DNA of 57,836 nt from an uncultured Oscillospiraceae bacterium (GTDB taxonomy: Bacteria; Bacillota; Clostridia; Oscillospirales; Oscillospiraceae). This document shows positions 2,189 to 57,836 of this stretch, in pieces. Under the pieces are notes generated by a model. It did not search any database. It was not told the origin of the DNA and saw only the letters and a program-made list of their open reading frames with translations. Made by a program: the position numbers and the translations under genes. The stretch covers positions 1 to 57,836 of the forward strand of contig CALXFT010000004.1 in the NCBI GenBank assembly GCA_944387635.1, read 5' to 3'. Each line of letters opens with the position of its first letter. Position 1 is the stretch's first letter.

Positions 2189-3244
2189 ATGGCAGGCGTC
2201 ACAGCCAGAGACATTGCCGCAAAGCTCGGACTGTCCCCTTCCGCCGTATCTCTGGCCTTAAACGGGAAGCCCGGCGTCAGCGAGGCCACCCGCAGTCTGG
2301 TCCTGGAGACCGCCGCCCAAATGGGGTACCCCCGGCTGGACCCCGCCACCCTGCCCGTTCTGAGCCGGATCATCTGCTTTGTCCGCTACGCGGGCAAGAC
2401 CATGCAGATTGCGGAGCACACCTCCTTTGCCTCCTTTGTGCTCCAGGGCATCGAAGCCCGGGCCACAGAACTGGGCTACAGCACCCAGGTCCGCTATCTC
2501 AACGCCGGGGACATCTACAATCCCAAGGCCCTGGAGTTTATCCGCAAGGCCGACGGCGTGATCTTCTTGGGTACAGACATCACCCTGGCCCAGCTTCCGG
2601 AGATTCAGCAGCTGTTCGACGCCCTGGGCCACGTGCCCGTGGTGGTGGTAGACAGCTCTCTGCTGGCCGACCGGGCCGACTGCGTGGTCAACGACAGCTT
2701 CGGCGGCGGACGCACGGCGGCGGAATATCTGATCCGGTCCGGCCACCGGCGGATCGGCTACATCCGTTCCAAGCAGCGCATTCCCAATTTCCAGGAGCGG
2801 GAGCAGGGGGTCCTGGCCGCCCTGGCCCATGCCGGCATCTCTCTGTCCGCCGTAATCGACGTGGACGTATCCTCCGAGGGGGCCTTCCAGGACTTCGACG
2901 CCTGGATCAAGCAGGACCCCCCTCTGCCGGAGGCCCTGTTCGCGGAAAACGACATTCTGGCCGCCGCGGCCATCCGGGTGCTGAAGAAGCACGGCTGCCG
3001 GATCCCCGAGGACATCTCGATCATCGGATTTGACGACATCCCCATGTGCGAAATGCTGGACCCGCCCTTGACCACCATCCACGCCTATAAGGAGGACATG
3101 GGCATTGTGGCCGCTGAGCATCTGCACCGGCGAATCCAGCGCGGCGAGGTTCCCCATCAGTCCCCCTCCATCGGCCTGCTGAAGACCGCGGTGTCCATGC
3201 GCCTGGTACCCCGGTTCAGCGTCCGGAAAAATCCGGCAGAGTAG
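2189..3244 (+). CDS. LacI/GalR-family transcriptional regulator
   Basis: A 351-residue regulator of normal LacI length. Residues 4-50 form the helix-turn-helix and hinge region (VTARDIAAKLGLSPSAVSLA). The rest is a periplasmic-binding-protein-like sensor domain, including the DDIPMCEMLDPPLTTIH segment typical of the family near residues 290-305. AGGAGG precedes ATG 2189, and the upstream in-frame extension in another frame is not coding. It is divergent from xylulokinase, so it most likely represses that operon and is released by a pentose-related effector. The effector cannot be read from sequence. Confidence 0.9.
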   Translation: MAGVTARDIAAKLGLSPSAVSLALNGKPGVSEATRSLVLETAAQMGYPRLDPATLPVLSRIICFVRYAGKTMQIAEHTSFASFVLQGIEARATELGYSTQVRYLNAGDIYNPKALEFIRKADGVIFLGTDITLAQLPEIQQLFDALGHVPVVVVDSSLLADRADCVVNDSFGGGRTAAEYLIRSGHRRIGYIRSKQRIPNFQEREQGVLAALAHAGISLSAVIDVDVSSEGAFQDFDAWIKQDPPLPEALFAENDILAAAAIRVLKKHGCRIPEDISIIGFDDIPMCEMLDPPLTTIHAYKEDMGIVAAEHLHRRIQRGEVPHQSPSIGLLKTAVSMRLVPRFSVRKNPAE

Positions 3245-3311
3245 TCAAAAGAGGCTGTCATGGGGATATACATTTGAAAATCAAATCATGCTGAGGGATA
3301 AAATCCAGGGA

Positions 3312-3357
3312 GCCTTCGATTCAGCCGGCAGGAGCGGATGCCGGTTGAATCCGAGGC
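3312..3357 (+). terminator. Long imperfect hairpin after the LacI gene
   Basis: Arms of 19 bases (3312-3330 and 3339-3357) pair with three mismatches around an 8-base loop. The U-tract afterwards is weak. It may end the regulator transcript. The rest of the 317-base gap 3245-3561 holds only the promoter-like element at 3500. Confidence 0.4.
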
Positions 3358-24348: not shown

Positions 24349-24383
24349 TGCTTACCTCCTTGCTCCTTGGGGAATTATCATTA

Positions 24384-24827
24384 ATGCTTATCGACTTAAA
24401 CAGCAGAAATTGCAGATATCCGTTGCCTCCATGCAGACTTCCGTCTGGGCAGCTGTCAGGATGCTTACGCTTCACGCGGTCACCGCACCCATTTGGCGCT
24501 TAAGGCAATACCGGCACGAAACGAAGGGCGCGCCGGGAGGGGTCCAGGGGAGGGCGGCTTTGAGATATCAACTCAGCGCCTCCCCTGGCCGCGTTCTTTG
24601 CTGGCATTTCTGTGCGGGACAAGAAAGGAAGGCCCCCGGCAGGGGTCGGGGAGCACTTGCCCCTGTCTCAGCACTTCACCAGAACGCAATGCCCATACCT
24701 CTCAGTCAAAAATCAAAGATTTTTGCCAGCTCTCCTGGAAGGAGAGCCAAGGGCCTGGCTGTAGACAAAGCACTATGCATAAGGCTGACGCTTTCCGAAA
24801 TGTTTTGCTGTGTTAAATCGATAAGCA
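24384..24827. repeat. Dispersed structured repeat, copy 1 (complete, 444 bp)
   Basis: Bounded by near-perfect 16-base terminal inverted repeats, ATGCTTATCGACTTAA (24384-24399) and TTAAATCGATAAGCAT (24812-24827). Inside are a GC-rich hairpin (24544-24553 with 24579-24588) and a CAAAAATC-AAA-GATTTTTG hairpin (24707-24725). Copies recur at 39525, 43113 and the right window edge. Short open frames here exist only because of low stop density. It fills most of the 569-base gap between the small membrane protein and the ferredoxin gene. Confidence 0.8.
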
Positions 24828-24917
24828 TTTTACCATTTCCATTACGGACCCTCGCACACAGCCGGAAAGTCCCTTGTCCCGGAAGAAGCCGCCGTGAAGG
24901 CTGTCCCCCGTTCCGGG

Positions 24918-43112: not shown

Positions 43113-43516
43113 AATATCCGTTCCTTCTATGCAGACTTCCGTTTGAGCACCTGCCAGGATGCTTGCGCTTCACAAGAGCACCGCACCAATTTGGCACTTA
43201 GAGCAATACCTGTACCAAACGAAATGCGCGCCAGGAGGGGTCCGGGGAGGGCGGCTTTGAGAGCGGGAGCTATCAACTCAGCGCCTCCCCGGTCGGCTTC
43301 TTTGCCTTCTTTCTTGCCGAAACAAGAAAGAAGGTCCCCCGGAAGGGGTCAGGGAGCACTACCGCTATCTCAGCACTCTACAAAAACGTACTACCCAAGC
43401 CTCTCAGTCAAAAATCATAAATTGTTGCCAAGAAAGCCGCGACTGTACTTCGCTTACTCCAAGAGGCGAGCCAAGGCGGTCCGCAGGGCCGCAGGCTGAG
43501 TCAAGTCGATAAGCAT
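43113..43516. repeat. Dispersed structured repeat, copy 3
   Basis: Diverged copy. The right inverted repeat TCAAGTCGATAAGCAT (43501-43516) is kept; the left end is degraded, with homology beginning near 43113. The GC hairpin is CCGGGGAGG (43242-43250) with CCTCCCCGG (43284-43292): one base pair shorter than in copy 1, with both arms changed together. It lies between the rplA terminators and a gene of the other strand. Confidence 0.7.
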
Positions 43517-57659: not shown

Positions 57660-57836
57660 AAAGTGAAGCGCAGTCACCGCAGCTTTCTTGGCAAAAATCT
57701 TCGATTTTTGACTGAGAGGTTTGGGCATTGCGTTTTAAGTGAAGTGCTGAGACAGCGGTAAGTGCTCCCCGACCCCTGCCGGGGGCCTTCCTTTCTTGTC
57801 CCGCACAGAAATGCCAGCAAAGAACGCGGCCAGGGG
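57660..57836. repeat. Dispersed structured repeat, copy 4 (reverse orientation, cut by the window edge)
   Basis: The stretch up to the edge is the reverse complement of copies 1-3, beginning in the part downstream of CAAAAATC/GATTTTTG and running into the GC-rich CCGACCCC block. The hairpin CAAAAATC-TTC-GATTTTTG keeps its stem, with a changed loop. The other half lies outside the window. Confidence 0.75.

Follow-up and report, generated by a model that had tools for sequence, protein, structure and literature searches.

The 57,836 bp contig CALXFT010000004.1 of an uncultured Oscillospiraceae bacterium (assembly GCA_944387635.1), termed the window here in its full length, carries four copies of a dispersed repeat with inverted ends. 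This repeat family, and the folded module that many of its members enclose, are the subject of the present analysis. A preliminary description of the window reported the four copies, and all were located. Copy 1 (24384–24828, plus strand, 445 bp) is a complete element; its two inverted ends, ATGCTTATCGACTTAA and TTAAATCGATAAGCAT, agree at 15 of 16 bases, as near-perfect as first described. The flanking decamers ATTATCATTA (24374–24383) and TTTACCATTT (24829–24838) are identical at 7 of 10 positions and appear to be an aged target duplication. Copy 2 (39525 to ~39995, plus strand) retains the left end and has lost the right, copy 3 (43113–43516, plus strand) has lost the left end and retains the right at 43503–43516, and copy 4 (approximately 57689 to 57836, minus strand) is truncated by the contig end. 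Copy 1 contains the central module, and the 5′ arm of the main stem of this module, termed P2, is ruined in copies 1, 2 and 4. Copy 3 is the sole window copy with an intact pseudoknot module.

In copy 3 the parts of the module follow one another closely on the plus strand. An upstream stem (43242–43292), read from the sequence, is formed by CCGGGGAGG (43242–43250) and CCTCCCCGG (43284–43292). Next to it is the predicted 5′ strand of the pseudoknot, TCGGC (43293–43297), which is the complement of GCCGA at 43316–43320 according to the rule drawn from the instances discussed below. The linker TTCTTT (43298–43303) is the predicted third strand on AAGAAA (43324–43329), and stem P2 (43305–43334) consists of CCTTCTTTCTTG (43305–43316), a loop and CAAGAAAGAAGG (43323–43334). 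The segment 43291–43334 matches model R1 with an E value of 7.1e-15. The GC-rich stem pairs quoted for copies 1 and 3 were found as given: copy 1 has CCAGGGGAGG/CCTCCCCTGG, copy 2 has the same pair except for one change in its right arm, and CCGGGGAGG/CCTCCCCGG is the counterpart in copy 3. A further stem, CAAAAATC..GATTTTTG, was said to be kept while its loop differs. This is so for copies 1, 2 and 4, the loop differing in copy 4, but the stem is broken in copy 3. The CTCAGTC-hairpin-GCCAGC part of copy 1 (24698–24760) is a separate repeat with variable stems, and is common in genomes of the genus without the element end (loci L013–L017, L020–L026, L028 and L029).

The four-copy repeat is real and belongs to a large family, as a genome-wide count of the kind proposed in the preliminary description confirms. 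In the genome of the window (G000; 2.36 Mb in 106 contigs, 90% complete), a blastn search with copy 1 that scored 40 of 150 initial candidates gave at least 58 matches, and the 14-base end, at no more than one mismatch, occurs 74 times, versus once for the reversed pattern. Contigs often end inside a copy, and the copy number is therefore probably undercounted; contigs C8, C26, C39, C51, C66, C82 and C87 (first bases) terminate in this way, as does the window at 57836. The 459 kb of fetched sequence, a sample in which copies are over-represented, yielded 28 elements whose two ends could be paired, with lengths of 91 to 620 bp. The elements are mosaic, with a left part, the central hairpin module and two kinds of right part. 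At two loci (L032, L053) an extra insert of ~176 bp (GGGGAAGCTTTGCCCC..), which has its own inverted arms, occupies precisely the central hairpin loop, a palindrome inside a palindrome.

For 26 two-ended copies, genes were called on either side with a crude open reading frame caller. The flanking genes are convergent at 11, tandem at 11 and divergent at 4, which gives 33 flanking 3′ ends versus 19 5′ ends. Gene 3′ ends are slightly favoured, and the statement that copies lie mostly just downstream of genes holds weakly. A second, smaller palindromic repeat, TGATACTGATTCTCTTTTAAAATC..GATTTTAATTAGAGAATCAT, occurs at 24 sites in the same 459 kb (reversed control 0), including L108:7803, L095:2429, L044:2469 and L036:2472. 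Many element ends adjoin it, as if it were a preferred target.

At the DNA level, the window repeats are almost certainly miniature inverted-repeat transposable elements (MITEs) of an IS1595-type element. This is based on an insertion sequence of 987 bp in the sister species G013 (locus L149), which has ends of the MITE type, a perfect 10-bp direct repeat and an open reading frame of 295 amino acids. The predicted protein matches PF12762 (DDE_Tnp_IS1595; 73.3 bits, cut-off 27), the IS1595 equivalog model NF033547 (174.2 bits, cut-off 75) and, at its N-terminus, the zinc ribbon PF12760 (47.2 bits, cut-off 25.4); by these profile matches it is an IS1595-family transposase. A full-length, transposase-encoding relative had been named beforehand as counting against the preliminary description. 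Such a relative exists, and it speaks for the MITE reading of that description. Target duplications, which had also been proposed as a check, are detectable: flanks are identical at 7 or more of 10 bases in 13 of the 28 two-ended elements (shuffled mean 1.5; 13 never reached in 2000 shuffles), and MITEs L145 and L148 of the sister species have perfect 10-bp repeats. Thus both ends shared with an autonomous element and target duplication are found in the window family. Among five two-ended relatives with both flanks, L149, L161, L163 and L173 have perfect 10-bp repeats, and the ends of the last three show two to four differences from the MITE end.

The 15-base end, at no more than one mismatch, is present in 13 of 61 genomes of the genus, but is abundant only in G000 (48), G007 (23) and G013 (27). 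Matches to the L149 transposase occur in 10 of the 61. No transposase had been seen in the window, and when the search with the L149 protein was extended to the genome of the window, at its 90% completeness, no match held up. The movement in trans that the preliminary description suggested would be served by the sister-species enzyme. According to the available text of two sources, the IS1595 family usually makes 8-bp target repeats (PMC8101967, PMC12561309). The length seen here changes from 10 to 8 bp if the outer T..A is assigned to the element; L149 and L072 do not fit this assignment. An IS4/IS231 origin, which the ends were at the outset presumed to resemble, was dropped on testing. The 61 genomes have 29 PF01609 matches, with none in the genome of the window, and none of the 29 loci has paired ends of the MITE type; four of 22 loci examined for flanking inverted repeats (L113–L116) have CAATGTCA..AACTTAAG ends.

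The central module of the MITEs of G000, G007 and G013 is also found in G022, G025 and G035 with other flanks. Named genomes were scanned with the pattern TTCTTTG-N4-CTTTCTTG-N4..9-CAAGAAAG, which has 23 fixed bases, and at least 119 stretches match. The phyla among the matches listed are Pseudomonadota, Bacillota, Bacteroidota, Nitrospira, Campylobacterota and candidate phyla; fewer than one chance match is expected in the collection, an estimate that assumes uniform composition. Cultured carriers of the module include Roseateles saccharophilus DSM 654, Anaerotruncus massiliensis AT3 and Zoogloea dura. Fold statistics were taken from 105 distinct instances among the matches listed. The outer four P2 pairs are complete in 98 of them, with 25 different 5′ words. 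In 79, at least four consecutive bases of the loop, taken together with its closing G, are Watson-Crick complements of bases within the octamer that precedes the linker; with shuffled loops the mean is 17.0 and the maximum 28 in 1000 shuffles. Such complementarity between the loop and bases upstream of the linker points to an H-type pseudoknot. In 26 chosen copies, three of them ruined, double-sided changes are found at 4 of the 12 P2 pairs, in 24 cells versus 7.3 shuffled. They affect 7 of 12 pairs in an alignment of 88 sequences, in which 99.2% of the P2 cells are paired.

Relative to the P2 purine strand, AAGAAA, the linker TTCTTT has a parallel orientation, as would a Hoogsteen third strand (T.A-T, C+.G-C). 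If the linker is a third strand, other purine words should need other linkers, and such linkers are found. Nine matched purine words and linkers were seen in all: AAAAA/TTTTT, AGAAA/TCTTT, GAAAA/CTTTT, AAAGAA/TTTCTT, AGGAAA/TCCTTT, AAGAAAA/TTCTTTT, GGAAAAA/CCTTTTT, AAAGAAAA/TTTCTTTT and GGAAAAAA/CCTTTTTT. Among 31 non-canonical stems in fetched loci, 23 carry precisely the linker that the rule predicts on one strand, and none does so on both; shuffled flanks give a mean of 5.1 and a maximum of 12 in 2000 shuffles. The 23 stems comprise seven purine words in two phyla. Three of the eight misses are copies of an unrelated palindrome in G118, two are second parses of stems already counted, two are one-base misses (L357, L285) and one is a decayed copy (L276). 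In viral contigs, matched word combinations gave 18, 0 and 2 matches and four mismatched combinations gave 0 each. One of the two poly-T matches has a poor outer stem and is probably a chance match, and for the word AAAGAA, with 0 matched and 0 mismatched, the comparison is without power.

These observations make it very likely that the core of the module is an H-type pseudoknot with stem P2 and the linker as a third strand. The triple helix itself, with the linker in the P2 major groove (U.A-U and C+.G-C), would follow from the parallel match. The fold most likely acts as RNA rather than as single-stranded DNA. On the linker strand of the outer P2, G.U outnumbers A.C (17 versus 7), and the two single changes seen in inner arms are likewise G.U; this preference modestly favours RNA. 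Scans of the module with Rfam 15, in the window and in sets of 7 and 8 loci, gave no family at gathering score, with only tRNA passing. A match to the Rfam family Clostridiales-2 at L308:4124–4196 lies below threshold (26.3 bits versus 58.6; E 0.055) and ends 64 bases upstream of one module there.

Elsewhere the module appears to be the outer part of a larger noncoding unit. Neighbours were analysed for 156 module matches in 119 loci listed, and pairs within 3 kb number 36. Of these, 30 are divergent, with the modules back to back, 5 are convergent and 1 is tandem; 28 of the 30 divergent pairs are spaced by 222–847 bp. In Thioalkalivibrio the repeated unit is ~760 bp, and four genomes have 35 to 71 blastn matches each, several per copy; no match to the unit was found in plasmids. 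At one Thioalkalivibrio intergenic site the unit is present in three strains and other repeats occupy the site in the fourth, G383 (L349 ~2783–3332, GTAGGATGTGATGAGCG..). Candidates for an autonomous gene between divergent arms were rejected: L208 has an open reading frame without a Pfam match, and L294 (5007–7675) has a TIR-domain protein between divergent modules 2.6 kb apart, which may be cargo or chance. A second domain, TGTYTGAGC..GCGAGTT with a variable closing helix, lies upstream of 35 of 111 modules and downstream of none (reverse-complement control 1). Its outer helix has at least 5 bp in 31 of 33 distinct cases (shuffled mean 10.8, maximum 18 in 1000). TGAG opposite CGAG would put tandem G.A pairs beside a bulge, a kink-turn-like arrangement.

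The distribution is patchy. Of 299 Bacillota genomes, 10 have a match to model R1 at E 0.001, that of the window included, and two other genomes are multi-copy (G152, 17 matches; G255, 13). Some weak matches are not the module; the G118 palindrome, which has no linker, is a false friend of this kind. In the genome of the window, 5 of the 17 modules listed are intact, including that of copy 3. The subtype found most often there has multiplied in spite of a ruined arm in its main stem. Most modules of this genome thus appear to be relics. The carrier multiplies in the absence of the fold, and structural selection, which the preliminary description drew from pair-wise changes between copies, is therefore not claimable for most copies here. 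Its proposal of a structured RNA in 3′ regions stands in part: the module covaries strongly, on evidence from other genomes, but the 3′ bias is slight.

The combined explanation that is moderately favoured has two layers, a carrier and a cargo. The carrier would be non-autonomous IS1595-type MITEs, mobilized in trans by a transposase that recognizes ends of the RTGCTTATCGACTTNANNCAGC form and makes duplications of about 10 bp at AT-rich targets; this enzyme occurs in sister species and not in the genome of the window. As cargo, many copies would enclose part of a structured element spread across bacterial phyla. Its core would fold, most likely as RNA, into P2, with the loop pairing upstream of the linker and the linker as third strand in the P2 major groove. 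In other genomes this core would form the outer portion of a two-armed noncoding unit whose arms lie back to back. The unit itself may be a selfish mobile element, its folded arms recognized by an enzyme supplied in trans, and the MITEs of the genus would have captured one arm, now decaying in most window copies. The selfish reading is based on the two-arm unit being multi-copy, patchy, strain-variable and symmetric, and has about an even chance of being right. More tentative is the broader proposal of a new class of mobile structured RNA across several phyla, with two back-to-back arms read by a fold-recognizing enzyme and one arm captured by IS1595 MITEs. As part of that proposal, and no firmer than it, each arm would combine a kink-turn-like domain, in some lineages, with a triple-helix pseudoknot in which the third strand and the stem evolve together, base by base.

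Several observations weigh against parts of this explanation. On the carrier side, L160, which encodes the nearest transposase relative after that of G013 (86% identical protein), has the same ends and no target repeat. For the fold, further pair types in P2 are not above shuffles in the 26 copies or in the 88 sequences, and the invariance of the inner stem is uninformative since that stem is fixed in the pattern that retrieved most sequences. Four contiguous pseudoknot pairs are lacking in 26 of the 105 instances, and a single fixed register pairs in 58.8% of cells in the 88 sequences, a value attributed to shifts of the pseudoknot register. The 23 stems that follow the linker rule include several related copies. 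With respect to the two-arm unit, 79 of the 119 listed loci have a single module, no clean empty site with a target duplication was found, the G383 site holding other repeats, and no moving enzyme was found, with no transposase in the six open reading frames scanned. In addition, the same ruined P2 5′ arm is found in 12 of the 17 modules listed from the genome of the window, copies 1, 2 and 4 among them.

Other explanations account for some of the same data, the first two given here being serious competitors of the selfish reading. The pseudoknot module may be a host-serving RNA element, such as a 3′ stabilizer that blocks exonucleases, and may spread through its usefulness downstream of genes. 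The excess of gene 3′ ends beside the MITEs and of G.U in the outer P2 would agree with this, as would the mechanical stabilization of pseudoknots by a triple helix described in the available text of PMC5696562. However, the module is patchy among Bacillota, some of the few matches being false; no constant neighbour gene was noticed in the loci viewed, where no systematic test was made; the amplified subtype in the genome of the window lacks the fold, and back-to-back arms are unsuited to a one-way 3′ element. A host role is thus rather unlikely. The orientation of the arms bears also on the question of whether a real fold works at the level of single-stranded DNA, as a hairpin recognized by a REP-type transposase. 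T.A-T triplexes also form in DNA, and the divergent pairs recall REP doublets, which have been proposed as compound mobile units (PMC2817692). The G.U preference and the kink-turn-like second domain modestly indicate RNA instead, and the REPs listed in the available part of that paper are short GTAG hairpins unlike the module, so that a DNA hairpin is unlikely. The covariation could in principle be a by-product of palindromes copied into palindromes with no selected fold, and window elements are indeed nested and mosaic. This is highly improbable: the pseudoknot strand and the linker lie outside the palindrome and still track it, on one strand only, and copying palindromes does not produce a parallel mirror match. 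The two-layer reading, with IS1595-type carrier and captured pseudoknot, is retained.

Known systems resemble one layer or the other. IS1595 insertion sequences and MITEs share the zinc ribbon, the DDE_Tnp_IS1595 domain, short inverted ends and AT-rich target repeats (PMC8101967, PMC12561309, as far as their available text goes); they differ in the usual repeat length, 8 bp as against 10 bp here, and the MITEs here carry a foreign structured module. SAM-V and preQ1 riboswitches are reported to have a triple-helix pseudoknot fold but are single regulatory sites before genes, whereas copies of the module are scattered and often occur in pairs, with a third strand that varies along with the stem. 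REP/BIME sequences moved by RAYTs are likewise dispersed intergenic structured repeats with inverted doublets (PMC2817692). REPs are hairpins of 20–35 nt with GTAG, and the arm here is longer and has a pseudoknot; inspection against the available part of that paper found no short hairpin with a GTAG foot in the module, the link to REPs being judged from sequence features. Neither REP nor any Rfam family fits as the identity of the module. STAXI is a repeated pseudoknot near DNA-handling genes but is tandem, listed for Enterobacteriales in the portion of PMC2864571 available, and was not hit in the Rfam scans made here. Type III toxin-antitoxin RNAs are tandem pseudoknots, unlike the neighbour pairs described above; toxin genes were not searched. 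PMC2864571 also lists a 'Transposase-resistance' motif from several phyla, without an Rfam number in its table.

MITEs are a known kind of element, and riboswitches provide known examples of the triple-helix pseudoknot fold. No description of a dispersed unit with a triple-helix pseudoknot core was found in the literature searched, with subscription papers mostly outside it, which is not proof that the unit is undescribed. It is unusual for base-triple covariation to be recognizable by sequence alone; in the present case one rule covers at least seven purine words from two phyla. The linker rule gives a precise three-dimensional model for a dispersed noncoding repeat and poses the question of what moves it. 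Such repeats are easily dismissed as junk, and the window family presents a case of a MITE that would bear the folded core of another element.
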